From Martelella sp. HB161492 (lineage in GTDB: Bacteria > Pseudomonadota > Alphaproteobacteria > Rhizobiales > Rhizobiaceae), in assembly GCF_013184775.1 (NCBI RefSeq), contig NZ_JAATVV010000005.1, positions 124,001 through 188,000 of the forward strand: DNA of 64,000 nucleotides, read 5' to 3'. The position numbers were made by a program, and so were the translations under genes. A model generated the notes under the pieces. The model had not been told where the DNA came from and did no database searches. It worked only from the letters and a program-made list of their open reading frames with translations. Numbering within the stretch: position 1 is the stretch's first letter; every line of letters begins with the position of its first letter. Positions 13,913 to 35,070 of the stretch are shown piece by piece.

Positions 13913-13917
13913 ATGAA

Positions 13918-16604: not shown

Positions 16605-16727
16605 AATTCGACCTTTCTCTGAAATAACGATTAGCAAATCGTATTCTATCTACCCAGAGTGCGGCATTTATTATTCCGCGGTGAATCTTCTAGTTGCCGG
16701 AAAACGGTCTATCAGATGCTTTATGCA

Positions 16728-17894
16728 TCAGTCGGCTCCGAACAAATCACGAGTAAATACCTTTTCCGCGACGTCAGATATTTCGGCGGTCAAGCGGTTT
16801 GCCACGATAATTTCCGCCTCAGCTTTGAAGGCATCCAGATCGCGCAGTACGCGTGAACCGAAGAACTTATCTTCTTCTAGAACCGGTTCGAAGACAATAA
16901 CTTCAATACCCTTGGCCTTGAGCCTTTTCATAATGCCCTGAACGGAAGATTGCCGGAAATTGTCAGATCCCGCCTTCATGACCAATCGGTGAATGCCAAC
17001 AACGCCGGGTTTGCGGGCTATGATCTGTTCGGCAAGAAAATCCTTGCGGGTGCGGTTGGCATCCACGATAGCCGCAATCAGGTTCTGTGGAACCTCTGAA
17101 TAGTTCGCAAGAAGCTGTTTCGTGTCCTTGGGTAGGCAGTATCCACCATAGCCGAATGATGGATTATTGTAGTGGTTGCCAATGCGGGGATCGAGGCTAA
17201 CGCCATCAACTATCTGGCGTGTATCGAGCCCGCGTGACAGCGCATAGCTATCCAGTTCATTGAAGAAGGCAACACGCATGGCCAGATAAGTGTTTGCGAA
17301 GAGCTTGATAGCTTCTGCTTCTGAAGGGTTCGTGAAAAGAATGTCCACGTCCTTCTTTATTGCCCCTTCAAGAAGCAATTGCGCAAATTGTTGAGCCTTG
17401 TCCGAGCGTTCGCCCACAATGATGCGGGATGGATACAGATTGTCGTAAAGCGCCCTTCCCTCTCGAAGGAATTCTGGTGAGAAGACAATATTTTTTGTGC
17501 CTAACTCAGCTCTAATACGCTCCACGTAGCCAACCGGAATTGTCGACTTTATGACGATCATCGCCTTGTCATTGCACTTCAGGACCTGATTGAGGACTAG
17601 CTCGACGCTTGATGTATCGAAGTAGTTATTGACAGGGTCATAGTTGGTTGGCGTAGCGACGATGACAAAATCGGCATTAGTGTAGGCTTCTTGTGGGTCG
17701 ATTGTAGCACTTAAGTCTAGTTTCCTATTAGAGAGGGCATCTTCAAGCTCCTTGTCAAGTATCGGGCAGGTACCAGCATTCACAAGATCTACACGCTTAC
17801 TGGAAACATCGACTGCTACAACATTGTGGTTTTGAGCAAGAAGTACGGCGTTAGAAAGACCCACGTATCCAAGGCCCGCTACAGCAATTTTCAT
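16728..17894 (-). CDS. ugd: UDP-glucose 6-dehydrogenase, cassette copy
   Basis: A 388-residue NAD-dependent UDP-sugar dehydrogenase: Rossmann motif [40 protein letters not shown], and the catalytic C253 in [12 protein letters not shown]. It oxidises UDP-glucose to UDP-glucuronate for acidic polysaccharide synthesis. A second gene at 35739-36905 encodes a protein of similar build with catalytic Cys at the same residue number and the same tail [10 protein letters not shown]. This copy uses more AT-rich codons than the other. It is followed on the same strand by the two glycosyltransferases. Confidence 0.95.
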
Positions 17895-18435
17895 TCCAGA
17901 TACCCTATTTTAAGAATTCGTTTCGTTTAGAAAATTGTTTTCAAGGTCGGCTAGATCGCCTCGGTATATTGCCCTTTTGTCGTATTTTTCCGGTCTTGTG
18001 TCATCTCAAATCAAAAAAGTTCCAATAAAATCTGCCTAGGCAGAGAATCCTAGTTTTCGTAAACGGCTCAGATTGACATAAAAAGCCTCTCTGAATTGCC
18101 CTGAACATTGGGCCAAAAATCCTTGAAAATTTGTGATCGAAGAAAACAGCATAATTGCCGCTATGTAAAGGTAATCTTCCCCCTGAGCAGATTTCCCGGG
18201 CCACCTCTCCGCAATCTGCACATCAGCGTAATCACAATAAAAGCCTCGCCTGCCAATGCGGGTCCTTGCAACATCGTTCAAACCCAGTTTAAATCGCGCC
18301 AGGTGATAGGCTGCCGATTTGGTTGATGCTCGATTTTGATATTGCCCCAAATGATTCGATGACGAACACTTTATTCAATCTGATTCCGATAGACATTTGA
18401 GTACTACATTTGAATTTTTTTGAAAGGTTGATTGC
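17895..18435. other. Divergent intergenic region, ugd / sulfotransferase
   Basis: This AT-rich 541-bp region separates two genes transcribed outward and should hold both promoters. Two minus-strand frames (18001-18204 and 18036-18350) show no family features and no convincing starts. I see no RNA gene. Confidence 0.5.
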
Positions 18436-19308
18436 ATGAGAGAATCCTCTCCCAACTCCCGAAATAGCGTTTTTCTTATTGTTGGTTCGATGAAATCAGG
18501 GACCACATCGCTCTTCAATGATATGGCCAAGCATCCGGCAATATTCTCGCCGTCGGTCAAAGAACCTGATGATCTGGCAGACGATGCCGTACTGACTGAT
18601 GCGGGGCGGAAGAAATATTATAATCTTTTCAAAGGTGCCAAGCCGGATCAATGGATTGGGGAAGCTTCAACTGCCTACGCGAAGTATCCGGACATCAGCG
18701 GCGTACCCCAGCGCGCCCTCGAGATTCTCGGGCCCGAAACAAGGCTGATCTTCATCGGGCGTGATCCGGTGGAGCGGCTCCGAAGCCACTACCGTCACGA
18801 AATTCAAAACCGGAACTTTACCAAACCTCTACGTGAAGTGCTGACGGACTGGCCGATCCTAGAGCGTGTTTCCGATTATGATCTGCAGCTTGCTCAGTGG
18901 CTGGAAGTCTTCAGTCGTGACCAACTACTGGTCCTGAGAATGCAGGATTACAATCGGGAGCCGAAGACAACACTAAACAGAGTGTTCCGCTTTCTCAATT
19001 TGCCAGCGCTTGAAGAGGTTGGGCCAGTCGAAGTTGGAGAAGTAGCCAATAGCTCTGCTGGAAAAAGGCAGCCACACGGACTTATGCGGACGATCATGTA
19101 TTCCGACTTGATGCAGCGTAATATCAAGCCGCTTATCCCGCGAGTTCTTCGAAGCGCCCTGCAAAAATTACTCATACCAAAGGGCGTTAGCTGCTTTGAT
19201 GACGAGCTGCCGCCTGAGATGGAGCAAGAACTCCGCGCACGCATGACGAAAGCGACGAAGAACTTTGAGCAGTTTGCAGCTGAAGATTTACAACGCTATG
19301 CACTTTAG
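18436..19308 (+). CDS. PAPS-dependent sulfotransferase (carbohydrate type)
   Basis: The 290-residue product has the two PAPS-binding signatures of sulfotransferases: the 5'-phosphosulfate loop VGSMKSGTTSLFNDM near residue 20 and the 3'-phosphate motif IFIGRDPVERLRSHYRHEI near residue 115, with the Arg and Ser expected there. Later elements WLEVFSRDQLLVLRMQDYN and VFRFLNLP are also typical. It would transfer sulfate from PAPS to a hydroxyl of a sugar in the cytoplasm, before export. GAAAGG lies upstream of the ATG. It sits inside the polysaccharide cassette and about 9 kb from genes that make PAPS (cysD, cysNC) and remove PAP (cysQ). The natural acceptor, most likely the polysaccharide made here, is an inference. 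Confidence 0.9.
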   Translation: MRESSPNSRNSVFLIVGSMKSGTTSLFNDMAKHPAIFSPSVKEPDDLADDAVLTDAGRKKYYNLFKGAKPDQWIGEASTAYAKYPDISGVPQRALEILGPETRLIFIGRDPVERLRSHYRHEIQNRNFTKPLREVLTDWPILERVSDYDLQLAQWLEVFSRDQLLVLRMQDYNREPKTTLNRVFRFLNLPALEEVGPVEVGEVANSSAGKRQPHGLMRTIMYSDLMQRNIKPLIPRVLRSALQKLLIPKGVSCFDDELPPEMEQELRARMTKATKNFEQFAAEDLQRYAL

Positions 19309-19365
19309 AGCGTCTGGGGCACAGGCTGTAGTTAATCACTTCCAAGGCAAGTTGGGATAATAGAG

Positions 19366-19470
19366 GTGCAGGAGATCGCCATAGAGTGGCTTTCGTCATA
19401 CAACCCCGGACGGCCCAACATTGGCTTTGGCGGAATCAGATCCGCTCAGAGACTGAAGATGGCCGCCTGA
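19366..19470 (+). pseudogene. IS3-family orfB C-terminal remnant
   Basis: The frame reads EVQEIAIEWLSSYNPGRPNI then GFGGIRSAQRLKMAA and a stop at 19468-19470. It corresponds to the common IS3 tail (..ATEWLWTYNNERPNMGIGG..PAQKLKMAA). The following CCCCGCTAAAATGGGG resembles an IS end. Everything upstream is lost. It shows that the cassette itself has had an earlier IS insertion between the sulfotransferase and rfbC. Confidence 0.75.
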
Positions 19471-19702
19471 ATTCTATCGCTGAACCCCGCTAAAATGGGG
19501 GCATTGCAGTTTCCCGAGAAACTTGGCTCTTCGCGGATGGATTCCATGATTAGTATTCAGTCGGTAAAATTAACCTGTATTTCAAAAACAACTTGCGCTC
19601 AGAAGGGGATTTAGCGTCTAAAGGGATCAATCTATTTTATATTATTTACACAGCATGAATTTTCGGTATCAGCAATTATTTCACGTAAATTGGAGTTGAA
19701 CT

Positions 19703-20263
19703 GTGCAGTTCAAAGACACCAAGATCAACGGCGTTAAAATAATTTCGCCGGTTCGCCGTGGCGACCATCGCGGCTATTTCAGCGAAGTGTTCAAAGACAA
19801 CTGGTTTTGCGAAAACGTCGCGGATGTACGCTTTGTACAGGACAATGAGTCCCTTTCCATTGAGCCAGGCACCGTACGCGGCCTTCACTTCCAATTGGAC
19901 CCCTTTGCCCAAGGCAAGCTTGTGCGGTGTATCAGCGGCGCCCTTTGGGATGTTGCCGTTGATCTCCGCCGGGAATCCCCGACTTACGGAAAGTGGTTTG
20001 GTTGCGAGCTTTCTGCTGAAAACGGCACCCAGCTGTGGTTGCCGGCAGGCATGGCACACGGTTTCATGACAATCGCCCCTGGTACGATCATTTTCTACAA
20101 GGTCACGGCACCTTACAGTGCAGAAAACGATCGCGGGCTGCGCTGGGACGATCCGGAAATTGGCATCGAGTGGCCGAATACAGCAAGCCCGATTTTATCT
20201 GAAAAGGATGAGAAGCAGCCACTTTTGCGGGACCTTCCTACATATTTCCATGTCGCTGTATAG
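19703..20263 (+). CDS. rfbC: dTDP-4-dehydrorhamnose 3,5-epimerase, cassette copy
   Basis: A 186-residue cupin-fold epimerase with the family core: [48 protein letters not shown] (catalytic His in GLHFQ), [20 protein letters not shown] and [21 protein letters not shown]. It catalyses the third step of dTDP-L-rhamnose synthesis. First gene of a tight rfbCBDA operon. The AT-rich stretch 19616-19700 upstream (TATTTTATATTATTTACACA) probably contains the operon promoter. A second rfbC is at 35071-35628. Confidence 0.96.
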
Positions 20264-20274
20264 GAGAATGCATA

Positions 20275-21330
20275 GTGCGGGTATTGGTAACTGGAGGTGC
20301 AGGCTTTATCGGTTCTGCACTCGTGCGCTATCTGGTCAGTGAAGTTGGCTGTGAAGTTTTGAACATCGATAAGCTGACCTATGCAGGTAATCTTGCATCG
20401 CTGAAGCCGGTTGAAAACAATCCGAACCACCGTTTCCTTAAGGCTGATATTTGCGACCAGAACGCAATATCTGAAGCATTCGAGAGCTTTAAGCCGGACT
20501 ACGTCATGCATCTGGCGGCCGAAAGCCATGTGGACCGATCGATAACCGGGGCAGGTGACTTTGTGAATACAAATGTGATCGGCACCTTCAATATGCTGGA
20601 AGCGGCACGCCGTTATCGAAACAACCTGCCGGAACCGCGCAAATCCACCTTCCGCATGCTGCATGTTTCCACCGACGAGGTCTATGGATCTCTGGGTGAA
20701 AAGGGTCTCTTTGAGGAAACCACACCTTACGATCCATCGTCACCTTATTCTGCCTCTAAGGCGGCGAGCGACCATCTGGTTTCGGCCTGGCAGAGAACTT
20801 ATGGTTTTCCGGCGGTTATTTCCAACTGCTCAAATAACTATGGGCCGTTCCACTTCCCTGAAAAGCTGATCCCGTTGACTATCCTCAACGTCCTTGACGG
20901 CAAGCCTTTGCCAGTCTACGGCAACGGCGCGAACATTCGTGACTGGCTCTATGTGGAAGACCACGTCCGCGCTTTGTGGCTGATCGTCCGCGATGGTCGC
21001 CTCGGTGAGAGATACAATGTCGGAGGCCGCAACGAGCGTCGCAACATTGATGTTGTCAAACGAGTTTGTTCGATCATGGACGATCTTCGCCCAGAGAGCG
21101 CACCATACGAGGATCTGATTGCTCACGTTACTGATCGACCAGGGCACGATGCGCGCTACGCCATTGACGCAACCAAACTGGAATCCGAACTTGGTTGGAG
21201 GGCGCAGGAAAATTTCGACACCGGCATTCGCAAAACTGTTGAATGGTATTTGAATAACGAGTGGTGGTGGAAACCGCTTCGTGAAGGTGTTTATTCCGGC
21301 GAACGTCTTGGTGTTTTGAAAAAGGCTTGA
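20275..21330 (+). CDS. rfbB: dTDP-glucose 4,6-dehydratase, cassette copy
   Basis: A 351-residue short-chain-type dehydratase starting at GTG with AGGAGA upstream: [15 protein letters not shown] (NAD site), [20 protein letters not shown] (catalytic Asp-Glu), [12 protein letters not shown] (YxxxK), [10 protein letters not shown] and [14 protein letters not shown]. It converts dTDP-glucose to the 4-keto-6-deoxy intermediate. Ten bases separate it from rfbC and its stop overlaps the first possible start of rfbD, so the operon is translationally coupled. Confidence 0.96.
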
Positions 21331-21332
21331 TT

Positions 21333-22226
21333 GTGAAACTGGCAGTAACTGGCAAAAACGGACAAGTCACACGCTCACTTCAGGCGTTGGCGAGCCCAGA
21401 TCTTCAAATTGAGGCCACCGGAAGACCGGAACTGGATCTGGCAGATCCAGGAAGTGTTGTATCGGCCCTGAGCGACGTTCAAGCGGATGCAGTGATCTCC
21501 GCTGCGGCCTACACTGCGGTGGACAAGGCGGAAAGCGAGAGCGAAATTGCTTCTGCCGTCAATCGCGATGGTGCAGGCACCGTTGCAGCTGCGGCGAAAA
21601 AGCTAGGCATTCCAGTTCTTCACCTCTCCACGGACTATGTTTTCGACGGCTGCAAAAACGGACTCTACGTAGAAACTGACGGCTCTGGCCCCATCTCGGT
21701 CTATGGCAAGTCCAAGCTGGAGGGCGAGCAGGCAATTGCCGCGGCGACCCCCAATTTTGCGATGTTCCGTACAGCATGGGTTTATTCAGTCTACGGCAAC
21801 AACTTGGTGAAAGCGATGCTGCGGCTTGCAGAAACCCGCAACGAACTGAATGTTGTGTCAAATCAGGTCGGTTGCCCGACCAGTGCGCACGATTTCGCCA
21901 CCTCACTGGTGGATGCGGCCAAACAAATGATTACAGGTTATGCCACCGAACTACGTGGCATATTTCACCTCGCAAGCTCAGGCGAAATGAACTGGGCGGG
22001 GTTCGCACGCTACATCTACGAACTTCGCGCGGAAAAGACCGGCAAATCGATGCTGGTGAACGATATCCCGACATCGCAATATCCCACACCGGCCAAACGC
22101 CCCGCCAACTCCCGCCTCGGCTGCTCCAAAATAAAATCTGCGTTCGGCATTACGATGCCGGACTGGCAAATTTCCACGCGTCAGGTTATTGAAACTCTAT
22201 TGGAAGAAACCGGAGAAACTTCATGA
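21333..22226 (+). CDS. rfbD: dTDP-4-dehydrorhamnose reductase, cassette copy
   Basis: Start taken at GTG 21333 ([15 protein letters not shown]); a TTG at 21327 overlapping the rfbB stop is possible. The roughly 297-residue product carries the NADPH site [40 protein letters not shown] (YxxxK) and [15 protein letters not shown] at the end, all typical of RfbD/RmlD. It performs the final reduction to dTDP-L-rhamnose. Overlaps rfbA in ATGA. Confidence 0.95.
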
Positions 22227-23086
22227 AAGGTATCATTCTCGCGGGAGGCAGCGGCACGCGCCTTCATCCAATGACAATTGCAATCAGCAAGCAGATCATC
22301 CCGGTGTACGATAAACCGATGATCTACTACCCGCTGACGACGCTGATGTTGGCCGGGATCAACGAAATCCTGATCATTTCCACCCCGCACGATATGCCCA
22401 TGTTCCAGAAGCTTCTGGGCGACGGTTCACAATGGGGGATTTCCCTCAGCTATGCCGAACAGCCAAGTCCTGACGGGCTGGCGCAAGCCTACATGATCGG
22501 CGCAGATTTTGTAGCAGGCTCGCCTTCATGTCTGATCTTGGGAGACAACATCTACTATGGGCATAGACTTCCCGAGCTAATGACGGACGCACAGAACGTC
22601 GATCATGGTGCAACAGTCTTTGCCTACCACGTCACCGACCCCGAGCGTTATGGAGTAGTCGATTTTGATGAAAGCATGAAGGCAATTTCGATCGAGGAGA
22701 AACCGGAGAAACCGAAGTCCAACTGGGCGGTCACCGGGCTTTATTTCTACGATTCTGAGGTCGTTGATATCGTAGCAGATCTCAAACCTTCGGCACGCGG
22801 GGAATACGAGATCACTGACGTCAATCAGCATTATCTTGACCGCGGCAAACTCAAAGTATCCATCATGGGTCGTGGCTATGCCTGGCTCGACACCGGAACG
22901 CCCGAAAGCCTGCTGGAAGCCGGTGAATTCGTCCGAACGCTGGAAAAGCGCCAGGGTTTCAAAATGGCCTGCCCCGAAGAGATCGCCATGGCCAAGGGGT
23001 TCATTTCAAAAGCCGATTTTGCGAAGATTGCTGAAAATTCTGGAAAGGGAGACTATGGCAAATATTTGCGCGCGCTGGCTAGATAA
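22223..23086 (+). CDS. rfbA: Glucose-1-phosphate thymidylyltransferase (intact copy)
   Basis: A 287-residue nucleotidyltransferase with [69 protein letters not shown] and the C-terminal [19 protein letters not shown]. It makes dTDP-glucose from dTTP and glucose-1-phosphate, the entry step of rhamnose synthesis. Length is normal for RmlA. This is the only intact rfbA in the window: the paralogue at 32367-33176 is broken in several places, so both rhamnose operons appear to depend on this gene unless another copy lies elsewhere. Confidence 0.96.
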
Positions 23087-23181
23087 ATTTTGTTGATCTG
23101 AATTGAGATTATCAAAGCTTTGACCACGAATGTGGAGCAGATCAACACTTCTCTTCTGACGCTAAGGTAAGCTGGTTTCAT

Positions 23182-24498
23182 ATGTCATTTGGGTCCGATA
23201 ACGAAGATGATGGAATTGGGCGGGCAGTTTTGCTCGCAGCTTGGCTCGTTGCCATTTCTCTTGACAAGTATGCTGTATTTTTGGGGGCGGTCATCATCGC
23301 CTGGCAGATTTTGAAAACTGGCAAGCTTCAGCTCTCCGGACTTTATGTGACGCGACCTGTTTTGCTGCTCATTATCATCGGCGCGATAAGCGGGGGTTTT
23401 GAGCTCAGGTTCACTTTTTGGGACTACATGCGCGACGCAATTCTATTGTTGCGCGTGCCTTTGATTGCTATAGTGAGCGCCCTCATCGTCGGAAATCAAA
23501 TGTCTGAGCGCAACTTCGCCAGGGCTATTGTCATGGCCGGCACCTTCCTCGCTGCCGTTTATCTTATTCGGTATATGGGCATGGGGGGCGATGAACTGAC
23601 ACGGCGTGCGTTGCAAACTGGTGTCGGTCGCGGTTATGTGCTGGCCGTCTTCGCGATATTTACATTACTATTCGGACCCAATTTACGATGCGTCTCCTTC
23701 ACGAGCATACTATTTAAAACTGGTCTTTCGGCTATGTTGATGTATTCCGTTGTTGCGTCAACATCCCGAACTCTGCTCCTGTTGCTGGCATATTTTTTCG
23801 TCGCCAAAGTGTGGATTGCGCTGAGAGCTCCTTTTGGGTTCCTGCTCAGCATCGTAGTTGGAGTCGTTGCAATTTTGTCCTTCCCACCTGTTCTGGAAGG
23901 TATTGGCCGATTTGTAGATTCACTTGGCAACCCGCAGCTTAGCAGTTTTATCGGTGAGCTTGTGGCCAGCGATTTTGGTAGCTTTTCTCAGATCAACGAT
24001 GCCTACCGTGCATTCGAGGCTTCAAGGGGTTGGGAAACTTTCATCAACGGCAGCAGTTGGTCGTATTTGTTTGGGCAGGGCCTCGGGGCGCGGGTCGATC
24101 TTGGGGTCAGTGTCGTATTGGGCGCTCAATCCGCTAACCTAACAAGCTATACCACAGTTCCATTTGGCCACGTCGCCGGTGTGACTGCCCTGGTGAAATT
24201 CGGCGTGATTGGGTTCCTAATTTACTTCTGGACATTGTTTACACTGTCATGGCTAGGCCCGACTTCCCGCAAGCCGTTTTTCTCTGTAATTAACCATGGC
24301 TCCATCATTTTGTTGGCGCACATATTTCTGACTTTTCAGGGCCTTTTTTCAACGCTCAATCTTTTCACGGCCACACTGGCGCTTGCCTCGGCCAGCACAA
24401 CCCTGCTGCATGCTGATGCAAAACAATCCAAATTGGCTACGGAGCCTGCCACAGGGCAACCCTGCAAGAATACGACAAAGGCGCTATCGCACGCATGA
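23182..24498 (+). CDS. Wzy-like O-antigen/exopolysaccharide polymerase
   Basis: A 438-residue integral membrane protein with about ten or more hydrophobic segments and a larger hydrophilic loop at about residues 240-330, the layout of Wzy/WaaL polymerases and ligases. Sequence is poorly conserved, as usual for the family. SFSQINDAYRAFEASRGWET followed by LFGQGLGARVDLG resembles the loop just before the last membrane segments in this family. It would join lipid-linked repeat units at the periplasmic face. It overlaps the flippase gene by 4 bp (ATGA), which supports the assignment. Substrate specificity unknown. Confidence 0.78.
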   Translation: MSFGSDNEDDGIGRAVLLAAWLVAISLDKYAVFLGAVIIAWQILKTGKLQLSGLYVTRPVLLLIIIGAISGGFELRFTFWDYMRDAILLLRVPLIAIVSALIVGNQMSERNFARAIVMAGTFLAAVYLIRYMGMGGDELTRRALQTGVGRGYVLAVFAIFTLLFGPNLRCVSFTSILFKTGLSAMLMYSVVASTSRTLLLLLAYFFVAKVWIALRAPFGFLLSIVVGVVAILSFPPVLEGIGRFVDSLGNPQLSSFIGELVASDFGSFSQINDAYRAFEASRGWETFINGSSWSYLFGQGLGARVDLGVSVVLGAQSANLTSYTTVPFGHVAGVTALVKFGVIGFLIYFWTLFTLSWLGPTSRKPFFSVINHGSIILLAHIFLTFQGLFSTLNLFTATLALASASTTLLHADAKQSKLATEPATGQPCKNTTKALSHA

Positions 24499-25772
24499 AG
24501 CTCGGAAGCCTCCTGAGATCAATGATGATGATGTTGCTAGGCTCAAGTGGTGCCATGGTCATCAGTTCTCTATCAGTCCTCCTTCTTACCCATTATGTGG
24601 GGCCTGAAGTCTATGGCATCTACCAAGCGGTAGATGCACTCGCTATGATTTTCGCAGTTGGCGGCCTATTCGCAGTCGATAAGGCATTCTTTATCAGCCG
24701 GTCTCGTGGTGAAGATGAGCGAATTGTCGCTATAGGATTGGTGGCCTTGGGCTGCTCCTGCATAGTTGCTCTCGGGGTGCTTTGGCTGCTCATCGAATTT
24801 GGAGGAATGCTCGACGGCGGCATGAGCATTATGATGGGAGCATATCTTCTGTTCTCTATTTTCTCGCGAGGGCTGTTTTCGCTTGCCCGAAGCTACCATA
24901 TCCGTGACACAAGATACCGCAAAGTGTACGTTGGTGAACTGATGCGCGCCATCGGTCTGCTGGTCGGGCGGACTGTTGCAGCATTCACAATGCCAAACCT
25001 CATGGGGTTACTCCTCAGTGGTCTGTTTGGTTCATTCTCGGGCACCCATCGGATCGTACGCGATCTTTACCCCTACATTCGGTCAGGATTTAGGAAAATT
25101 GGTGACCGGCGGTTTCGCGCGATGGCGTTCAAGCACAGGCGCTTCCTGCTGCTTGAAGGGTGGGGGGGCTTCATGCGTCCGCTGGGGCAGAGAGGTATCA
25201 TCATCCTGGTGGCTCCGCTGTTCGGGCCACAGCAAGCAGCGATCGCCTCAATGGCATTTCTATTGTTGCTCCAGCCTCTTCAGATCGCCGTGAACGCAGT
25301 GGTTGATGTCGTTCGCTCGAGGCTTGGACTGGCAATGCGCGGAGTTTCTATGAAGGGGGATCTCAGATATGCGCGGCTGATGCCCATTTGGGTCATCGGC
25401 ATAACACCCCTAGCGCTTATCGCGGGAATTACTCTCATCGAGCTTCTATCGCCGATCATTTTGGGAGATGGATGGCAAGACATCGGAACTGCGTCCATGT
25501 CCATGGCAGCGCTCATATACGGGCTTATGATTGCACGGGCACTGCAATCAGTTTATTCTCAGTTCTCACGACAGGATATGGCATTGCTAATTGACTCAAC
25601 AATGTCAATCGGCAGCCTCTCTCTGATATTTTTGTTTTGGCTATTGGGCCTTCCAATACGGCAGGTCTATTTCTGGACCGGACTCTCTTTGCTACTGTTT
25701 CTGTCGGGTTTTCTGATCCATTTTTACCTCTGGAAGAAAGCGGATCGGGGTTCCGATGAAATTTCTCCTTAA
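24495..25772 (+). CDS. Wzx-like polysaccharide flippase
   Basis: A 425-residue membrane protein with roughly 12 hydrophobic helices and the MATE/PST-family N-terminus (SSLSVLLLTHYVGPEVYGIY). Short charged loops carry arginines (FKHRRFLLLEGWGGFMRPLG, QRGIIILVAPLFGPQQAAIA), typical of Wzx. It would flip lipid-linked repeat units to the periplasm. Start overlaps the polymerase stop; the gene ends 72 bp before the right 96-bp border repeat, so polymerase and flippase close the cassette. Confidence 0.85.
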   Translation: MKLGSLLRSMMMMLLGSSGAMVISSLSVLLLTHYVGPEVYGIYQAVDALAMIFAVGGLFAVDKAFFISRSRGEDERIVAIGLVALGCSCIVALGVLWLLIEFGGMLDGGMSIMMGAYLLFSIFSRGLFSLARSYHIRDTRYRKVYVGELMRAIGLLVGRTVAAFTMPNLMGLLLSGLFGSFSGTHRIVRDLYPYIRSGFRKIGDRRFRAMAFKHRRFLLLEGWGGFMRPLGQRGIIILVAPLFGPQQAAIASMAFLLLLQPLQIAVNAVVDVVRSRLGLAMRGVSMKGDLRYARLMPIWVIGITPLALIAGITLIELLSPIILGDGWQDIGTASMSMAALIYGLMIARALQSVYSQFSRQDMALLIDSTMSIGSLSLIFLFWLLGLPIRQVYFWTGLSLLLFLSGFLIHFYLWKKADRGSDEISP

Positions 25773-25844
25773 TCAAGATCTTAATCGTGTGATTCACTAT
25801 TCCAATGTCCGTCGTCGAATGATTATGGACAGAATGGGGTCGGG

Positions 25845-25940
25845 TGACCTGCCACTGAACTTTCATCCGGCAGCGACTAGGGTTGAAACAATCTGAACCG
25901 CCCCAGTTTTCTGGACCAGCGGAGGGTGGAGTTTTCCGGC
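25845..25940 (-). repeat. 96-bp terminal inverted repeat, right copy
   Basis: Inverted partner of 13918-14013 (95 of 96 bases). It starts TGACCTGCCACTGAACTTTC; positions 25894-25940 are the IS3 right end (TGAACCGCCCCAGTTTTCTG) and 25845-25893 lie outside the IS3 inverted repeat. Sequence to the left of 25845 shows no match to the other side. Confidence 0.9.
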
Positions 25941-25945
25941 TCTGA

Positions 25946-26236
25946 TCACGATGGCGGGCTGGTCGCGCCACCGGGATTATGCAACGCGATCGGGACGTTG
26001 TATCCGATCGCCGAATGAGGACGATCCTCATTGTAGTGTCTACGCCAATCCTCCAACTTTTCGCGCGCATCCGCAAGGGTCATGAACCAGTTCGCGTTCA
26101 GGCATTCCGGACGCAGCTTGCTGTTAAAGGCTTCGATGAAGCCGTTGTCAGTCGGTTTGCCAGGCCGCGAGAAGTCTAGCCTAACCTTGTTCACATAGGC
26201 CCAGAGATCGAGGTCACGGGAGATAAATTCGCTGCC
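25946..26236 (-). pseudogene. IS3 copy 2 orfB, C-terminal segment
   Basis: Frame [20 protein letters not shown] ... PTDNGFIEAFNSKLRPECLN ... HSAIGYNVPIALHNPGGATS, ending at 25946. It carries the last catalytic Glu (FIEAF). It continues the segment at 27854-28036 across the IS110 insertion: TIRVDN-GSEFISRD. Confidence 0.85.
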
Positions 26237-27853
26237 ATAGCACGTCGGGAAGCAGTGCTGTCGATAGGTTATGGCCAGCCGCGGAGCCCCAAATAGCGTA
26301 GTGGGTGGCCATAACCGGTCCCAGGTCTCAACAGTGGTTTTGCTGAACCACACCGCTGAGGAGACAGGTTATGACCATCAACCATACTACATCCGCGACC
26401 TTGCTAGTCGCCATCGACATTTCCAAGCATCGCCACGAGGTGCTGATCGGAATTCCAGGCAAGAGGCGCCGCCGGCGCATGACGGTCACCAATACACTCG
26501 AGGACTTCAGAAGACTGTCTGCGGCCCTAGCCAGCTACGATCTGCCGGTGCGGATCGGGTTCGAGGCGACCGGTAACTATCACCGGCCGCTGGCGCACCA
26601 TCTCGGCCAGTATGGGTTTGAGCTGAAGCTCGTCTCTTCTGTCGGCCTCGCCCGGACACGGGAGGCCCTGCACAACAGCTGGGACAAGAATGACCCGAAG
26701 GATGCTCAGGTTATTCTGCACATGCTCGAGATCGGAGCAGTGCAGTTTTTCCATGATCCCCTGGTCGTCGGGACAGCAGACATTCAGGACCCACGAGATC
26801 GTCTCACGCTCCAAGACCGAGCTTTGGCACCGCATCCTGACGCATTACCTGCCACTCTACTTCCCCGAGGCTGAGCGGTTTCATCGAAGCTCTCGGACCG
26901 ACTGGTTCCTGGCGTTTCTCGAGAAGTATCCGACACCGACGATGATTACGACCATGAACCGGGACGCCTTCATCGCAGATGCCTGGCAGGTGGTTGGCAA
27001 GAAGGTCTCCAAAGAGCGCTTGCTTTCAGACATTTATGCCACGGCCGTCGGCTCCGTGGGGCTGCCCGTGCATCCGGATTCCGACGCCGTTCGCATGTTC
27101 CGCCTTGTCCTTGCCGAAGGCAGAAGCCGTGTTCGCCAACGCAACGAGATCGAGTCCAGGGCAGTCGAGCTGCTCTCCGAGTTGCCGGACTATCAGTTGC
27201 TGACAACCATTCCCGGTATCGGTCCGATCAATGCCATGACCATCTTGGCCAAGGCAGGTGACCTGCGCCGGTTCCGACATCACCGGCAATTCCTGAAGTT
27301 CTGCGGCATGGACCTCGCCACTGTGCAGTCTGGCATGTTCCGCGGTCAAAGCCGGATATCGAAGTACGGCAACGCCCGCTTGCGTCGTACGCTCTGGATG
27401 GCCGGCCAGACTGCCGTTCTCAAGCGGACCAACAGCTTTCGTGACCAGTTCGAACGCTACATCTCGAAAGACCGACACAACGCTCATCTGCGTCGCAAGG
27501 CTTACACCGCGATCGCGGCAAAGATGGCGCGCACCGTACACGCCGTAGTTAAACACGGCGAAGCCTATCGCCCCTTCTTCGAGGGGGTGAGCCCAGGCGG
27601 AAGGACCTCTCTCTGACACGAGCCGTGGAGGCAGGCATCTGACCTCGTAGACAATGTTCGGGCCTTCTGCTTGGGAATTGGGATCTCGTATTAAGGACGG
27701 TGAGGGCCGCCATCGCGCGTACCCTGTGATTTGCTATGGAAGAGATCATTTCTTGACGGCAGAGCCCGTCTGGGCAATCTTGACAAGGCACCCGGGACAC
27801 CGGATGCCCTATGACCTGCTGACCTAAGCAGCCAGATTTTCTCGACATAGGAC
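26237..27853 (+). mobile_element. IS110-family element
   Basis: Boundaries are set by where IS3 orfB is interrupted: GCTGCC ends at 26236 and GTTGTCGAC resumes at 27854, and joining them restores the IS3 reading frame. No target duplication is seen, as is usual for IS110. The 134 bp before the transposase contain inverted motifs (GGTTATGGCCAGCCGCGG ... GGTGGCCATAACC). The single transposase gene is frameshifted. Confidence 0.8.
26371..27616 (+). pseudogene. IS110 transposase, frameshifted
   Basis: The first frame (26371 on) encodes the DEDD nuclease half: LLVAIDISKHRHEVLIG (D), RIGFEATGNYHRPLAHHL (E), SWDKNDPKDAQVILHMLEIG (D, D). The second frame, read from about 26780 to 27616, encodes the rest: THEIVSRSKTELWHRILTHY, LLTTIPGIGPINAMTILAKA and SGMFRGQSRISKYGNARLRR with the serine-recombinase-like Ser region. 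The frames meet near 26780-26800 (ACATTCAGGACCCACGAG), where a small deletion appears to have removed part of the usual linker and shifted the frame. Full activity is unlikely unless frameshifting occurs. Confidence 0.85.
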
Positions 27854-28036
27854 GTTGTCGACCCGTATCGTCTTCGGGTAGCCGCCTTTCCTGCAAATCC
27901 GTTCCAGCGTTTGCACCACATCCTCACCACGATAGATAAAGCGCGGGTCGGTGGCCGGGCTGAAGCGGGAATGGATATCCACAATGGTCAGGATTCGCAG
28001 CTTCTTGCCTGCCGCGAGCGGCTCGTGAAATGTCAA
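27854..28036 (-). pseudogene. IS3 copy 2 orfB, middle segment
   Basis: Minus-strand frame [60 protein letters not shown], with the second catalytic Asp. The upstream DVWAMDF region with the first Asp is missing, so the element is dead. Confidence 0.85.
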
Positions 28037-28071
28037 AATTTCGCAACAACCAAATTCATAAAATTAAAGCG

Positions 28072-28851
28072 TCAAAAATATTTTGCCCAACAGGTGAAAT
28101 ATGGATTTGCGAAATCAGAGTCTTCTTTCTGAGAAACCTTACCATAAGACAGTTTCTTATTATCTATCCCGACCGTTATTCCACCCGCCGCCCGCAGGAC
28201 AGCGTCACCTGCCGCCGTGTCCCATTCCATCGTCCGGCCGAACCGCGGATAAACATCCGCAAGACCTTCAGCAACAATGCAGAATTTCAACGATGACCCA
28301 ACCGATGTAAAGTCAGTCACGCCAATTTCACGCATAAAGACCTCGGTTTCCGAGCTGTTGTGTGAGCGACTGGCGACGGCGATCAGCGCATCGCCTTTCT
28401 CACGCACATGGATCGGACTGGCTGTGGCAATGCCGCCGTCCCCGATCATCAACTTTTCAGCACCCGTCACAGTCGTCCGATAGGCAACCCTCTTGGCCGG
28501 CGCATAAACAATGCCAGCAACCGGAATGCCGTCCTCAATCAGTGCAATATTGACCGTGAAGTCTTCGCGCTTGTTGATAAACTCCTTGGTGCCATCAAGC
28601 GGATCGACAAGGAAGAAGCTCTTGCCCGAAACATCCGGAACCTTGCCGGCGGCAACCGATTCCTCGGCGACGACCGGAATGTCGGGAAAGGCCTTTTCGA
28701 GATGACGGAGGATAATCGCCTCGGCCTTCTCATCGGCGATGGTCACCGGCGAGGCATCGGCCTTGTAGGAAACGTCGATGCCGCCGTTGTAAATCTCCAT
28801 GATGACCGCACCGGCCTCAAGCGCCGCCTCGAGAAAAACGTCCTGAAGCAT
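28072..28851 (-). CDS. cysQ: 3'(2'),5'-bisphosphate nucleotidase (PAP phosphatase)
   Basis: A 259-residue member of the inositol-monophosphatase superfamily with the metal site VAEESV (E), VDPLDGTKEFINKREDFTVN (the DPxDGT motif) and the C-terminal TMEWDTAAGDAVLRAAGG (WDxAAG). CysQ converts PAP to AMP, preventing inhibition by the by-product of PAPS-dependent sulfotransferases and PAPS reductase. It lies 2 bp after cysNC on the same strand, so the operon is cysD-cysNC-cysQ. The C-terminal 15 residues (VSQKEDSDFANPYFT...) are natural for the family; IS3 debris begins about 35 bp beyond the stop. Confidence 0.95.
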   Translation of the reverse strand: MLQDVFLEAALEAGAVIMEIYNGGIDVSYKADASPVTIADEKAEAIILRHLEKAFPDIPVVAEESVAAGKVPDVSGKSFFLVDPLDGTKEFINKREDFTVNIALIEDGIPVAGIVYAPAKRVAYRTTVTGAEKLMIGDGGIATASPIHVREKGDALIAVASRSHNSSETEVFMREIGVTDFTSVGSSLKFCIVAEGLADVYPRFGRTMEWDTAAGDAVLRAAGGITVGIDNKKLSYGKVSQKEDSDFANPYFTCWAKYF

Positions 28852-28853
28852 GC

Positions 28854-30752
28854 TCAGTCCTTTTTCTCGAGATTGGTGAGATAATCCTCGATCCGGCTCG
28901 CCAGCTCAAATGGCTCGTGGCCGACGGTATGGAGATGCAGTTCCGGATTTTCCGGCGTCTCATAGGGCGACGAAATACCGGTGAAGTTTTCGATCTCGCC
29001 GGCCTGAGCCTTCTTGTAGAGCCCCTTGGGGTCGCGCTGGGCGCAGACCTCAATCGGCGTGTCGACAAAGACTTCGACGAACTCTCCGGCATCCATCAGA
29101 TCACGCGCAAGACGGCGTTCCGAGCGGAACGGCGAGATGAAGGAAACCAGCACGATCAGCCCGGCATCGGCCATCAGCTTGGCGACTTCGGCAACGCGGC
29201 GGATGTTTTCAACGCGGTCTTCTGCCGTAAAGCCGAGATCGCGGTTGAGGCCATGGCGAATATTGTCGCCGTCAAGCATGTAGGTGTGCTTGCCCTTGGC
29301 GTGCAGGATCTTTTCCAGCGTATTGGCGACGGTGGACTTGCCGGAACCCGAAAGGCCGGTGAACCAGAGAACGGCCGGCTTCTGCGCTTTCAGCTCCGAA
29401 CGCGCCGCCTTGTTGACTTCGGTCGCCTGCCAGTGAACGTTCTGGGCACGGCGCAGCGGAAAATCGATCATGCCGGCACCAACCGTTGCATTGGTGATAC
29501 GATCAATAATGACGAAGTTACCAGTGGTGCGGTTGTCCTTATAGGCGTCGAAGACGATCGGCGCCTGGGTCGAGATGTTGCAGACGCCGACCTCGTTCAT
29601 GTTCAGCGCCTTGGCCGCTTCATGGGCGAAGGTATTGACGTTGACATGATATTTGAGCGCGGTGATCGTCGCCGACGTGCTGTCGACCTCGGTACGCAGG
29701 ATATAGGAACGCCCCGGGATCATCGGATTGGCATCGAACCAGATCAGCTTTGCCTGGAACTGGTCGGCAACGTTCGGGCGGGCCTCGGTCGCCACCAGAA
29801 TATTGCCGCGGGATACTTCGATCTCGTCCTCGAGCACCAGGGTCACCGCCTGCCCGGCTTCGGCCGAGGGCAGGCTGCCATCCATCGTGACAATGTCCTT
29901 GATCTTCGATGCCTGGCCGGATTTCGCAACCGTGATCGTGTCACCGATCGCCACCTTGCCGGAGGCGAGCTGTCCCGAGAAGCCGCGGAAGTTCAGGTTC
30001 GGGCGGGTAACCAGCTGGACCGGAAAACGCACCGGACGCTCGACAAGATCGGATTCGATCGGCACGACCTCGAGATGTTCCAGCAGCGCCGGCCCGGTAT
30101 ACCAGGGCATGTTCTGCGAGCGCATCGTCACATTGTCGCCGAAACGGGCCGACATCGGGATCGGCACGATGGTCTCGAAGCCAAGATCCTTGGCGAATTC
30201 GAGATAATCCGCAACGATCCTGTCATAGACCTCCTGCGAATAATCCATCAGGTCGATCTTGTTGATCGCAACCACGATATGGCGGATGCCGAGCAGCGAG
30301 GCGATGTAGGAATGCCGCCGGGTCTGACGCAGGATACCCTGCCGGCTGTCAACCAGCACCACGGCAAGATCGGCGGTTGAAGCGCCGGTTGCCATATTGC
30401 GGGTATATTCCTCGTGGCCGGGCGTGTCGGCGACGATGAACTTACGTTTCGAGGTGGCAAAGAAGCGGTAGGCGACATCAATGGTGATGCCCTGCTCGCG
30501 TTCCGACTCCAGACCGTCCACCAGCAGCGCGAAGTCGATGTCCTCGCCAGTGGTGCCGTGCTTGGCGCTGTCACGCTCAAGCGAGGCGAGCTGGTCCTCG
30601 AAGATCAGCTTGGTGTCATAAAGCAGACGGCCGATTAGCGTCGATTTGCCATCATCCACCGAACCGCAGGTCAGGAAGCGCAGCAGCGACTTGCGTTCCT
30701 GTTCGGCGAGATATTCGATCATATCGCCGGAAACGTCGATCATATCGTTCAT
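28854..30752 (-). CDS. cysNC: Bifunctional sulfate adenylyltransferase subunit 1 / adenylylsulfate kinase
   Basis: A 632-residue fusion. Residues 1 to about 430 are an EF-Tu-like GTPase (CysN): [17 protein letters not shown] (G1), [17 protein letters not shown] (G3), NKIDLMDY (G4), then beta-barrel domains. From about 440 comes APS kinase (CysC): [20 protein letters not shown] (P-loop), [31 protein letters not shown] and [11 protein letters not shown]. With CysD it makes APS and then PAPS from sulfate, ATP and GTP. The fusion with an active-looking kinase means the operon delivers PAPS, as in rhizobial NodQ. Its ATG shares one base with the cysD TGA. Confidence 0.97.
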
Positions 30753-31672
30753 CAGAAATACCCCTCGCGCTTCTTCTTCTCCATGGAACCGGCCTCATCC
30801 TTGTCGATGAGACGTCCCTGCCGCTCCGAAGTCCGGGCGGTGAGCATTTCGCGAACAATATCCTGAAGAGTGGCAGCTTCCGATTCGACGGCGCCTGTCA
30901 GCGGGTAGCAGCCGAGCGTGCGGAACCGCACCATCTTTTCCTCAACCTTATCGTCGGGACCGAGCGGCATGCGCTCGTCATCGACCATGATCAGCATGCC
31001 GTCCTTCTCGACGACCGGCCGCTTCTTGGCAAAATAGAGCGGCACGATCGGTATTTCTTCCTTCATGATATACTGCCAGATATCGAGCTCGGTCCAGTTG
31101 GACAGTGGGAAGACGCGGATCGATTCACCCGGTCCGACACGGGTATTATAGGTCTTCCACATTTCCGGTCGCTGGTGCTTCGGGTCCCAGGCGTGCTGGG
31201 CGTTGCGGAAGGAAAAGATGCGCTCCTTGGCGCGCGACTTTTCCTCATCGCGGCGTGCACCGCCGAAGGCGGCATCGAAACCATATTTGTCGAGCGCCTG
31301 CCTCAGGCCGACCGTCTTCCAGATGTGGGTATGCGTGTTTGAGCCGTGATCAAAGGGATTGATATTGCCCTCGACGCCTTCCGGATTGATATGCACCAGA
31401 AGATCGATGCCAAGTTCGCGCGCCATCCGGCTGCGGAACTCATACATCTCCTTGAACTTCCATGTTGTATCAACATGAAGAAAGGGAAAAGGCGGTTTCG
31501 CCGGATAGAAAGCTTTCATCGCTAGGTGCATCATCACCGACGAGTCTTTGCCAATCGAATAAAGCATAACCGGCTTGGAAAAGCTGGCCGCAACTTCACG
31601 AAAAATGTGGATAGATTCAGCTTCGAGACGCTGAAGATGAGTTAAGGACATTTCAAAACCCGATTTGGACAA
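30752..31672 (-). CDS. cysD: Sulfate adenylyltransferase subunit 2
   Basis: A 306-residue PP-loop ATPase: [20 protein letters not shown] (pyrophosphate loop), [39 protein letters not shown] and [20 protein letters not shown]. It catalyses adenylylation of sulfate together with CysN. First gene of the operon. Downstream coupling to cysNC is by a one-base stop/start overlap. The upstream region is IS-free but long (694 bp). Confidence 0.97.
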
Positions 31673-32366: not shown

Positions 32367-33176
32367 CTAGGCCAGCAGACGCATGAGATATTTCCCATAT
32401 TCGGTCTTGCTGAATTTTTGTGCCTGTTCGCTCAGCTGCTCATCGCTGATCCAGCCGGCCCGGTAGGCTATTTCTTCGGGGCATCCCGTCTGCATGCCCT
32501 GCCGTTCCGACAATGTCCGCACGAAGATCCCGGCCTCGAGCAGGCTGCTATGCGTTCCGGTGTCAAGCCAGGCAAAGCCGCGCCCCATAGTTTCAACCGA
32601 AAGCGTGCCGTCTTTGAGATAGCTTTCCAGCAGGGTGACGATCTCGAGCTCGCCACGCGGCGACGGCTTGACCGCCCGCGCCCGTGCACTCGCTTCACCG
32701 TCAAGGAAATAGAGCCCCGTCACCGCATAATTGGACGGTGGGACCTCCGGCCTCTTGAAGATTCCCCGCCCCCTGTAGCGCTCGGGATCGACGACATGGT
32801 ATCCAAAACCGTTCTCCCGGTCATCCTGAACGCGGCACTCTGCAATATTTCCGGCAGGTCATGGCCAAAAAAGATATTGTCACCGAGCACCATCGACGAA
32901 GGAACGCCGGCCAGGAAATCCTCCGCCAGAATATAGGCCTAGACCAGACCATCGGGTGACGGCTGCGTGATATAGGTGAGCGCGATCCTCCATTGGCTGC
33001 CATCACCGAGCAGCTTGCGGAACTGATCCTGATCCTGCTCAGCATCAGCACTGAAAGCGGAAGTAGATCATCGTCTTGTCATAGACCGACATCAGCTGCT
33101 TCGAAACGGCCATGGTCCGCGGATAGAGACGCGTGCAAGAGCCGCCCGTCAGAATGATACTCTTACGCGTTGTCAT
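32367..33176 (-). pseudogene. rfbA: Decayed glucose-1-phosphate thymidylyltransferase (second copy)
   Basis: The ATG at 33176 begins [20 protein letters not shown] then [19 protein letters not shown], recognisable RfbA with substitutions in the signature (GGSGTRLYP changed to GGSCTRLYP). A frameshift/deletion follows near 33060-33070, an in-frame TAG occurs at 32939-32941 within PSPDGLV-stop-AYILAEDFLAG, and another frameshift lies near 32830-32850 after LGDNIFFGHDLPEIL. The last 118 codons (from 32723: TGLYFLDGEASA..., GRGFAWLDTGTHSSLLEAG) are intact. At least three independent lesions make it a true pseudogene. The 5' end overlaps the rfbD stop as in a normal operon, so it was once functional here. 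Confidence 0.9.
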
Positions 33177-34020
33177 GAAGGCCCCCCAGCTTTTCGAGTA
33201 CCACCGAAAGATCGGCTTTCCAGTCCGAACGGGCCAGGCCGAAGGCCGACAGCGACCTGCAAGCCAGTCTAGAATTGGCCGGACGGCGTGCTGGCGTCGG
33301 ATAGGACGATGTCGGTATGTCGTTCACGGTTACGGCCCTGCCCGCCTGGCGAAAGATCTCTCGCGCAAAATCCGCCCAGCTGACATCCGGCGAACCGGAA
33401 AAGTGGTAGATGCCAGATTTTTCCGGCGACACCACCAGCTGCTCGGCGATGACCTTGCATGCCGTAGCAATGGAGGCAGCCGATGTCGGGCCTCCGATCT
33501 GGTCTGCAACCACATTCAGCGTGTCACGGGTTTCCGCCAGCCGCAGCATCGTCTTGACGAAATTGCCGCCGTGAACCGAAAAAACCCAGCTTGTTCTGAG
33601 GACGGCATAGGCGGCGCCACTTGCGGCCACGGCCTTCTCGCCGGCCAGCTTGCTGCGGCCATATGCACCAATCGGCCCGGTCGGGTGATCTGTCCCATAG
33701 GGTTCATCGCCCGCGCCATCGAAAACATAATCCGTGGAAATATGGACGAAAGGAACCGCCATCCTGGCGCAGATTTCGGCCATGGCGCCCGGCGCTGCGC
33801 CATTTACCATCATCGCCGTTGCCTCATCGCCTTCCGCCTTGTCGACGGCGGTATAGGCCGCCGCGTTGATGACGGCCTGCGGCTTCGCCGCCTCGATCGC
33901 CCGCGCGCAGGCGGAAGGATCGGTCAGATCGGCCGCATCACGCCCCAGAAAATGCGCTTCCGGCAGCAACAGCTGGAGCTCGGAGGCCACCTGGCCGCTT
34001 TTCCCGAAGACCAGGATCAT
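33163..34020 (-). CDS. rfbD: dTDP-4-dehydrorhamnose reductase, second copy
   Basis: From the ATG at 34020 ([20 protein letters not shown]), overlapping the rfbB stop in ATGA, the product is 285 residues. It has the NADPH site [49 protein letters not shown] (YxxxK) and [17 protein letters not shown]. It looks intact. Same reaction as the cassette rfbD at 21333, with many differences and higher GC. It is followed by the ruined rfbA. Confidence 0.95.
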
Positions 34021-35060: not shown

Positions 35061-35070
35061 CGCCCGCTCC

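Follow-up and report, generated by a model that had tools for sequence, protein, structure and literature searches.

A sulfotransferase-bearing cassette beside the only cysD-cysNC genes found in Martelella sp. HB161492 and the sulfated, rhamnose-containing polymer predicted from it

The window, a 64,000-nucleotide stretch of the genome of Martelella sp. HB161492, contains a cassette of ten open genes that probably directs the synthesis of a sulfated, rhamnose-containing polymer of the Wzx/Wzy type. The substrate, the sugar composition and the sulfation of this predicted product are what we infer from the genes, their motifs, their copy number and their synteny. The cassette spans 11.8 kb (14.0-25.8 kb of the window), and its GC content is 0.50 as opposed to 0.57-0.60 in the surroundings.

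Three of the genes are on the reverse strand: a glycosyltransferase of the rhamnosyltransferase-like DUF1972 type (14111-15238, PF09314 51 bits), which is 63% identical to a gene in a cluster of another Martelella genome (G011) and scores far under the cut-off of the Cps2T beta-1,4-rhamnosyltransferase model (149.6 versus 500 bits); a GT4 glycosyltransferase (15492-16637, PF00534 116.7 bits); and ugd1 (16728-17894, PF03721/00984/03720), of the UDP-glucose 6-dehydrogenase type, which passes TIGR03026 (339 bits, cut-off 189.8), misses PRK15057 (636 bits, cut-off 757) and may produce UDP-glucuronate. On the forward strand are the sulfotransferase gene (18436-19308), rmlC1 (19703-20263, 59.6% identity to G011 rmlC), rmlB1 (20275-21330, 73.8% identity to G011 rmlB), rmlD1 (21327-22226, about 51% identity to rmlD frames of the Asticcacaulis loci L121 and L123), rmlA1 (22223-23086, 68.5% identity to G011 rmlA) and genes for a Wzy-like polymerase (23182-24498, 438 aa with many hydrophobic spans) and a Wzx-like flippase (24495-25772, also with hydrophobic spans), separated by successive gaps of 394, 11, -4, -4, 95 and -4 bp. 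The identities of the last two are tentative: neither protein matched Pfam, NCBIfam or PHROGs; the Wzy-like protein matches locally, with E values of 4e-4 and 8e-4, two plasmid proteins labelled 'O-antigen ligase family', and the Wzx-like protein, for which no plasmid match was found, aligns over 385 aa with a PF13440 protein of a relative (G002) at 20% identity. Single-sequence structure prediction gave unusable models (pLDDT 47 for the Wzx-like protein, 35 for the sulfotransferase). No initiating sugar-phosphate transferase was recognised within the cassette; two genes of the initiating type (PF02397) are found elsewhere in the genome, on contigs C49 and C1.

The borders of the cassette are formed by IS remnants. 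On the left, an IS66 element (10797-13185) is followed by an IS3-type frame (13208-13912); on the right, an IS3-type remnant (25946-26353) is followed by an IS110-type element of two overlapping frames (26371-27616, forward strand, PF01548 and PF02371). The cassette lies between two inverted arms of 386 nt, the left one (13628-14013, forward strand) consisting of the 3′ part of the IS3-type transposase frame (rve/rve_3) and the IS end, and the right one (25845-26230, reverse strand) being an IS3-type remnant. The last 90 or so nucleotides of the arms are nearly identical, and over their whole length they are 78% identical, indicating related rather than identical IS copies. Two inverted, related IS copies around a cargo are the arrangement of a composite transposon; a complete transposase is absent from the flanking copies, the right frame being a 135-aa remnant beside the IS110-type element. 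Horizontal acquisition of a Wzx/Wzy-type polysaccharide module is the best explanation of the cassette.

The sulfotransferase (290 aa) passes the curated cut-offs for membership among the PAPS-dependent sulfotransferases in profile searches (PF13469 43.8 bits, cut-off 27; PF00685 40 bits, cut-off 22). In an alignment of 26 sequences including its own, G17, K20, T23 and R109 are invariant, S117 is conserved in 92% and E76 in 85%. It contains both cofactor motifs, the lysine loop of the 5′-PSB and the arginine/serine motif of the 3′-PB. An earlier note on this DNA, made from its letters alone, had placed a sulfotransferase with both motifs among genes for rhamnose, UDP-glucuronate, Wzy and Wzx, and that description is borne out, with Wzy and Wzx as its weaker part. 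Among solved structures, its sequence comes nearest to 3rnl (E 5.8e-17) and to heparan sulfate 3-O-sulfotransferases (E 2e-5 and weaker). It is the only sulfotransferase found in its own genome with PF00685, PF13469 and PF09037, and thus the single candidate PAPS user among these families; PF03567 was silent in this genome and in the controls as well, and is uninformative. A scan of the genome_contigs set found no relative, and the highest identity to any row of the sulfotransferase tree is 32%, the protein belonging to no well-supported small group and carrying a long-branch warning. One sulfotransferase orthologue shared across Martelella is rejected, as a BLAST search (E 1e-3) of the orfs at the cysNC loci, both those of Martelella and those of the genome_contigs set, gave no match to it.

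In the proposed pathway, RmlA1-RmlD1 would supply dTDP-rhamnose and Ugd1, judging by its family, UDP-glucuronate; the two glycosyltransferases of the cassette, together with an initiating sugar-phosphate transferase from elsewhere in the genome, would assemble a short lipid-linked repeat; the sulfotransferase, acting in the cytoplasm, would use PAPS to sulfate a sugar in this repeat; and the Wzx-like flippase and Wzy-like polymerase would complete the surface polymer. The PAPS would come from the single cysD-cysNC of the genome, shared with cysteine synthesis, and CysQ would clear the PAP. APS would pass to a CysH of the APS reductase type, with only the CysC domain committing sulfate to PAPS.

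Sulfated-polymer loci of this type are already known from pSymB of Sinorhizobium meliloti, the capsules of Cobetia and Vibrio, and synechan; with these rhizobial, marine gammaproteobacterial and cyanobacterial precedents, calling the polymer rare was an overstatement. On pSymB, as in the window, homologues of cysD, cysNC and cysQ (77%, 73% and 64% identical) stand in a row (nodP2-nodQ2-cysQ, 786634-790210). An HMM search located sulfotransferase-like frames at 803172, 810685 and 817644, assumed to be the three sulfotransferases that the source lists, with 13 glycosyltransferases and Wzx1, in a Clr-regulated cluster for which it proposes a sulfated polysaccharide (PMC5498481). The matched pSymB sulfotransferase is only 31% identical to that of the window, and apart from a partial match to rmlB (31%), the rml operon has no match in pSymB between 750 and 848 kb. 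The gammaproteobacterium Cobetia marina KMM 1449, whose capsule is reportedly exported by a Kps ABC transporter and not by Wzx/Wzy, resembles the window in the genes that it combines. Its cysN/C, cysD and cysQ are in one operon, dTDP-rhamnose genes and a sulfotransferase are in the cluster, and its sulfated capsule is described as chemically characterised (PMC11766843). The capsule cluster of Vibrio sp. KMM 8419, for which the report gives a solved structure of the sulfated polymer, a sulfotransferase near a rhamnose operon, mobile elements and second copies of cysC, cysN and cysD (PMC11641403), differs from the window in its ABC transporter and in that its cysDNC is a second copy. Synechan, encoded by the xss genes of Synechocystis pSYSM, is a sulfated, rhamnose-containing exopolysaccharide of the Wzx/Wzy type like the predicted polymer, although its host is a cyanobacterium. 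The terminal sulfotransferase of its cluster, taken to be XssA from the gene order, aligns with that of the window (29% over 230 aa, E 6e-27), and loss of xssA is described as stopping bloom formation and suppressing EPS accumulation (PMC8205485); the terms PAPS and cysC are absent from the main text of that paper, and the 31-kb stretch of pSYSM has no match to cysD, cysNC, cysQ, rmlA or rmlB.

Homologues of the sulfotransferase also occur close to rml genes on plasmids of Roseobacter denitrificans (32% identity, about 8 kb from rmlABCD) and Cereibacter sphaeroides (34%, adjoining rmlABCD). The Roseobacter region also has an oligosaccharide flippase, glycosyltransferases and a nucleotide-sugar dehydrogenase that shares 67% identity with ugd1; neither stretch (25-31 kb) has a match to cysD, cysNC or cysQ. 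A Rhodovulum stretch contains sulfotransferases, glycosyltransferases and a flippase, with no rml match. These neighbourhoods in polysaccharide regions, together with that in the synechan cluster and the shared direction of the sulfotransferase and rmlCBDA-wzy-wzx, argue against an active enzyme that sulfates some other target (LPS core, a lipid, a glycopeptide or a small molecule) and owes its place in the cassette to co-transfer only. That alternative is unlikely; it draws on the breadth of the families PF13469 and PF00685, on the divergence of the sulfotransferase, and on the reported sulfation of LPS by LpsS in S. meliloti.

Sulfate activation and PAP removal are encoded just past the right IS border, as the earlier note stated, by three intact genes on the reverse strand (28072-31672): cysQ, for 3′(2′),5′-bisphosphate nucleotidase (28072-28851, TIGR01331 287.9 bits, cut-off 228.8); cysNC, for a fusion of the ATP sulfurylase large subunit and APS kinase (28854-30752, PRK05506 1057 bits, cut-off 715); and cysD, for the ATP sulfurylase small subunit (30752-31672, TIGR02039 527.6 bits, cut-off 396.6). 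The presence of CysQ and an intact CysC domain were rightly called: the latter scores 239 bits as APS kinase (PF01583) and contains GLSGSGKST and SFISPF, presumably its functional motifs. The claim that this PAPS supply is dedicated to the sulfotransferase did not survive, since cysDNC is the only copy found in the genome (one strong CysC match, no second CysD and no Sat-type sulfurylase) and is conserved in the genus: all 13 Martelella genomes have cysNC, and in 12 of them the window sulfotransferase has no match. With IS sequences lying between them and their reading directions opposed, the sulfotransferase and cysDNC are not co-transcribed here. By comparison with the rhizobial nodPQ type, cysD-cysNC-cysQ near a sulfotransferase and polysaccharide genes (14111-25772) was found, the adjacency being secondary; an extra cysDNC copy beside a housekeeping one was not found in this genome, unlike in rhizobia, which a review credits with two complexes, NodPQ and CysDN (PMC6192434). 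Copy number and synteny need to be checked before PAPS operons are called dedicated.

The CysH of this genome passes the APS reductase model TIGR02055 (268 bits, cut-off 235.3) and misses the PAPS reductase model TIGR02057 (147.7 versus 254.2 bits); because it also passes PRK02090, named phosphoadenylyl-sulfate reductase (256.9 bits, cut-off 154), we can only infer its preference for APS. An APS-reductase-type CysH would not need CysC, so the retained CysC domain suggests a use of PAPS besides cysteine synthesis. CysC retention by itself is no report of sulfation, since cysNC is kept even in the four genomes (G005, G008, G009, G010) where no sulfotransferase was found with PF00685, PF13469 and PF09037; a 219-aa frame of G010 was left uncounted because it has no Pfam match, only a phmmer match to the sulfotransferase of G006. 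The conservation of cysDNC in relatives lacking the cassette is half of what the earlier note named as contrary evidence; the other half, that the operon serve only cysteine synthesis, fits poorly with a CysH that appears to be of the APS reductase type.

Comparison across the genus strengthened the association of sulfotransferases with cysDNC that the earlier note proposed. Four of the 13 Martelella genomes have sulfotransferases within 10 kb of cysNC (the present one, two in G001, one in G006 and two in G011), those of the three other genomes recurring beyond cysQ, and the remaining nine have none at the Pfam level within that distance. In G011 the order on one strand is cysD-cysNC-cysQ-sulfotransferase-GT4-(membrane protein)-wzx (PF01943)-sulfotransferase-rmlC-rmlB-rmlD-rmlA-DUF1972 glycosyltransferase. 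These sulfotransferases are divergent; the conserved cysD-cysNC-cysQ of Martelella is a recurrent neighbour of differing sulfotransferase-bearing polysaccharide genes. It is improbable, in our estimation, that cysDNC-cysQ serves cysteine synthesis alone, with CysC kept by fusion or inertia and the IS-bounded cassette silent or decaying. The occurrence of cysNC with or without detected sulfotransferases, the broken IS copies around the cassette, and a row of cysD, cysNC and a cysQ-like frame in Rhizobium setariae L144, where no sulfotransferase was found in 22 kb, would accord with such a relic. Against it stand the ten open cassette genes, the conserved catalytic residues of the sulfotransferase, the decay of a resident rmlA rather than the cassette copy, the probable needlessness of CysC for cysteine synthesis, and the recurrent sulfotransferases beyond cysQ.

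The adjacency of the cassette and cysQ was produced by an inversion. Relative to M. alba, where gmd directly follows cysQ, the block 28086-57096 is inverted, and one breakpoint falls where cysQ ends (3′), between the IS block and that gene (28020-28085): homology of the IS block stops at 28019 or 28029, depending on the comparison, and that of the M. alba cysQ end starts at 28086. The former neighbour of cysQ, gmd (GDP-mannose 4,6-dehydratase, 57298-58427, forward strand, PF16363 513 bits), is by the other junction. The adjacency therefore gives no evidence for one ancestral operon, and a sulfotransferase-cysDNC operon ancestral to this site is rejected for the window. Misassembly at a repeated IS sequence is an improbable alternative: the genome is a draft of 52 contigs and one junction is an IS block 99.3% identical over 420 bp to a block of M. 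alba, but both products of a single inversion are present and the reciprocal junction (57096-57298) matched no searched stretch at E 0.01, a weak null because about 47 bp of the query that are homologous to M. alba also went undetected in that search.

In this strain the rhamnose-type module occupies a place taken by other genes in relatives, and the inversion put it beside cysQ. At the level of the genus, core metabolism and sulfation would draw on one sulfate activation supply while the adjoining sulfotransferases differ; the locus is also a small testable module of one sulfotransferase, ten cassette genes and one PAPS source. There is demand for sulfated polysaccharides from bacteria as materials resembling heparin, and such polymers may have a part in tolerating salt, binding metals and making contact with hosts. 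A more speculative possibility, to which we give rather less than even credence, is that cysD-cysNC-cysQ is a fixed PAPS hub of Martelella, around which sulfotransferase-bearing glycan modules are exchanged with the help of IS elements, making the resident rmlA dispensable here. Lineages that keep one activation supply would then change from one sulfated surface polymer to another, fucose-type (gmd and an epimerase) or rhamnose-type (rmlCBDA). The resident rmlD2, rmlB2, rmlC2 and ugd2 (33163-36932, reverse strand) are open frames collinear with those of M. alba. Next to them, rmlA2 (32367-33176, reverse strand) has decayed: its homology is split over two frames, each of the three frames contains stops and only the last 118 aa are open, while the M. 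alba copy (292 aa) and rmlA1 of the cassette are open.

The sulfotransferase gene (window 18436-19308) belongs to a cassette of ten open genes (~14.0-25.8 kb) bounded on the left by IS66 and IS3-type elements (10.8-14.0 kb) and on the right by IS3/IS110-type elements (25.8-27.6 kb), in a genome of 5.28 Mb and 52 contigs. A DUF1972 glycosyltransferase, a GT4 glycosyltransferase and a UDP-glucose dehydrogenase are encoded on the minus strand of the cassette; on the plus strand are the sulfotransferase, rmlC, rmlB, rmlD, rmlA, a Wzy-like protein and a Wzx-like protein, in that order and with successive gaps of 394, 11, -4, -4, 95 and -4 bp. The cassette has a GC content of 0.50 against 0.57-0.60 in its surroundings, and its outer arms are an inverted pair of IS3-type ends (386 nt, 78% identity). 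Past the right IS group lie cysQ-cysNC-cysD, intact and on the minus strand. Orfs and profile matches bear out the earlier note's observation of these genes beside a sulfotransferase cassette, and the functional reading drawn from it, a sulfated rhamnose-containing surface polymer, is likely on this sequence evidence. Near the left IS island, window 7851-9071 encodes a 406-aa protein made up of numerous similar repeats, Sel1-like on visual inspection.

Beyond cysD is a second, resident set of genes, consisting of a decayed rmlA2 followed by open rmlD2, rmlB2, rmlC2 and ugd2. The homologous pieces of rmlA2 are spread over two reading frames, and each of the three frames contains stops, indicating more than one lesion; the counterpart in Martelella alba (292 aa) is open, as is the cassette copy rmlA1. 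The decay of rmlA2 would fit takeover of its function by the acquired module.

The sulfotransferase passed both PF13469 and PF00685 in the profile search, and among PDB sequences it matched 3rnl (E 5.8e-17), with heparan sulfate 3-O-sulfotransferases as weaker matches. A sulfotransferase frame was recovered in 28 of 29 order-level loci; when 25 of these frames were aligned with the window protein (26 sequences, three frames of at least 340 aa being excluded), K20 and R109 were invariant, S117 was present in 92% and E76 in 85%. The order sample contains matches in 56 of 397 genomes (this one counted), and plasmids contain matches in 143 records, all below 60% identity, nine of which span at least 80% of the query. 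No second sulfotransferase was found in the genome with PF00685, PF13469 or PF09037. The sulfotransferases of other Martelella species were considered as orthologues of the window protein and rejected on the basis of BLAST of locus orfs and a tree.

The PAPS supply, which the earlier note called dedicated, is instead shared. In this genome PF01507 matches CysD and CysH only, PF01583 matches CysNC and, marginally (26.4 bits), a 188-aa frame, and PF01747, for which controls were positive in 5/14, has no match; therefore CysDNC is the sole sulfate-activating system as far as tested, and it would also supply cysteine synthesis. CysH passed the APS-reductase model TIGR02055 and failed the PAPS-reductase model TIGR02057; it also passes PRK02090, a model named for PAPS. 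It contains the CC and CxxC cysteines typical of APS reductases. According to passages of a review, rhizobial CysH prefers APS, and a nodPQ mutant of Mesorhizobium loti no longer makes sulfated polysaccharides (PMC6192434). Because CysH is APS-reductase-like and there are such rhizobial precedents, CysC appears to be best accounted for by sulfation. All 13 Martelella genomes retain cysNC, however, four of them with no sulfotransferase detected by PF00685, PF13469 or PF09037, whereas the window sulfotransferase was matched in only one of the 13. Thus, of the counterevidence envisaged earlier, namely a cysDNC operon kept in relatives without the cassette and serving cysteine synthesis only, the first part was found and the second is at odds with an APS-reductase-like CysH, which would make CysC unnecessary for cysteine. 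Two partial cysNC copies in Martelella limonii (loci L077 and L078), 83% identical to the window cysNC and each truncated by a contig start, suggest that this genome carries two copies.

The synteny search that had been proposed showed that sulfotransferases recur near cysNC. Non-Stf0 sulfotransferases (PF00685/PF13469) number nine in seven of the 13 Martelella genomes (two each in M. alba and G011; one each in this genome, M. limonii, M. lutilitoris, M. mediterranea USBA-857 and G007), four Stf0 rows that also match PF13469 being left out. Six of the nine, from four genomes, are located on the cysQ side of cysNC at a distance of no more than 10 kb, and three lie elsewhere. With this genome excluded, three of six sulfotransferase-bearing genomes have one beside cysNC, for which the chance is ~2e-6 given a ~22 kb target per 5 Mb genome and assuming independence. 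The five Stf0-type sulfotransferases (PF09037), found in five of 13 genomes, are never beside cysNC; one (G002:C1:2017866-2018581) was read as two pieces whose coordinates overlap and is apparently frame-split. Nine of 13 genomes have no Pfam-level sulfotransferase within 10 kb of cysNC, M. limonii being visible on one side only as its cysNC copies begin at contig ends. The neighbouring genes differ: cysD-cysNC-cysQ-sulfotransferase-GT4-(379-aa hydrophobic protein)-Wzx-sulfotransferase-rmlC-rmlB-rmlD-rmlA-DUF1972 glycosyltransferase on a single strand in G011; cysDNCQ-gmd-epimerase-glycosyltransferase-GT4-sulfotransferase, with another sulfotransferase farther along, in M. alba; and cysDNCQ-GT4-gmd-(RmlB-related frame)-GT4-sulfotransferase-hexapeptide protein-pyruvyl transferase in M. 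mediterranea USBA-857. Differing sulfotransferase-bearing genes beside one PAPS operon are an interesting pattern at the level of the genus.

The adjacency of sulfotransferase and cysQ is present in the window, but comparison by BLASTN with M. alba, the nearest relative among the genomes compared (CysNC 98% identical, flanking DNA ~85%), indicates that it is secondary and arose by inversion. Window 28086-57096 corresponds in four pieces to M. alba 55609-23279 reversed, and the window gmd (57298-58420) corresponds to M. alba 55690-56812, immediately after cysQ in that genome. Since gmd lies beyond cysQ in M. alba and also in M. mediterranea USBA-857 and G010 (same strand, one intervening frame, a GT4 in the former), the window lineage is where the inversion most plausibly took place, one of its breakpoints falling between cysQ and gmd. 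The cassette would previously have been ~29 kb farther from cysQ. A misassembly could possibly produce the same order, but the junction at gmd had no match to the searched stretches, in a search that was insensitive. The window gmd is a remnant of the polysaccharide locus found past cysQ in M. alba. It is an orphan (57298-58427), with no usual epimerase partner among frames of at least 250 aa up to the window end. The IS block at 25845-28029 matches M. alba 19453-21654, 1.6 kb off the other end of the inverted block, with 95% identity (99.3% in the last 420 bp) against ~85% for the flanking chromosome, which suggests recent exchange of this block.

The window locus belongs to a kind of system already known from pSymB, synechan, Cobetia and Vibrio. 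On Sinorhizobium meliloti 1021 pSymB, homologues of CysD, CysNC and CysQ occupy 786634-790210, and sulfotransferase-like frames are found at 803172, 810685 and 817644; an excerpt of PMC5498481 proposes a sulfated polysaccharide for a pSymB cluster that matches this stretch by position. The terminal sulfotransferase of the synechan region is a homologue of the window protein, and the polymer is described in part of PMC8205485 as having rhamnose and sulfate at 1:2. Capsules of Cobetia (PMC11766843) and Vibrio (PMC11641403), as excerpted, have gene sets like that of the window and solved chemistry. A sulfotransferase homologue adjoins an rml operon on a Cereibacter plasmid and lies ~8 kb from one on a Roseobacter plasmid; in a Rhodovulum stretch, which encodes sulfotransferases, glycosyltransferases and a flippase, rml genes were not matched. 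In literature on Martelella sulfotransferases and exopolysaccharides, judged at title level, no report of a sulfated polysaccharide was found.

Other arrangements were seen among the compared cysNC loci. In Asticcacaulis sp. AC466 (L115, 8177-15520), the gene order is cysQ-like frame (judged by eye)-cysD-cysNC-rmlC-rmlB-rmlD-rmlA, all in the same orientation; cysNC and rmlC are 43 bp apart, and an RgpF-type rhamnan gene comes farther downstream; no sulfotransferase was found in the 22-kb stretch searched. In another Asticcacaulis locus (L121), cysD and the rml genes are divergently oriented. Eight loci of Pseudomonas, Cupriavidus and Ralstonia (L138, L153, L160, L163 and L166-L169) have a sulfotransferase-like frame of 395-521 aa on the strand opposite cysNC, at a distance of ~2-6 kb, with weak matches (E 6e-8 to 2e-4).
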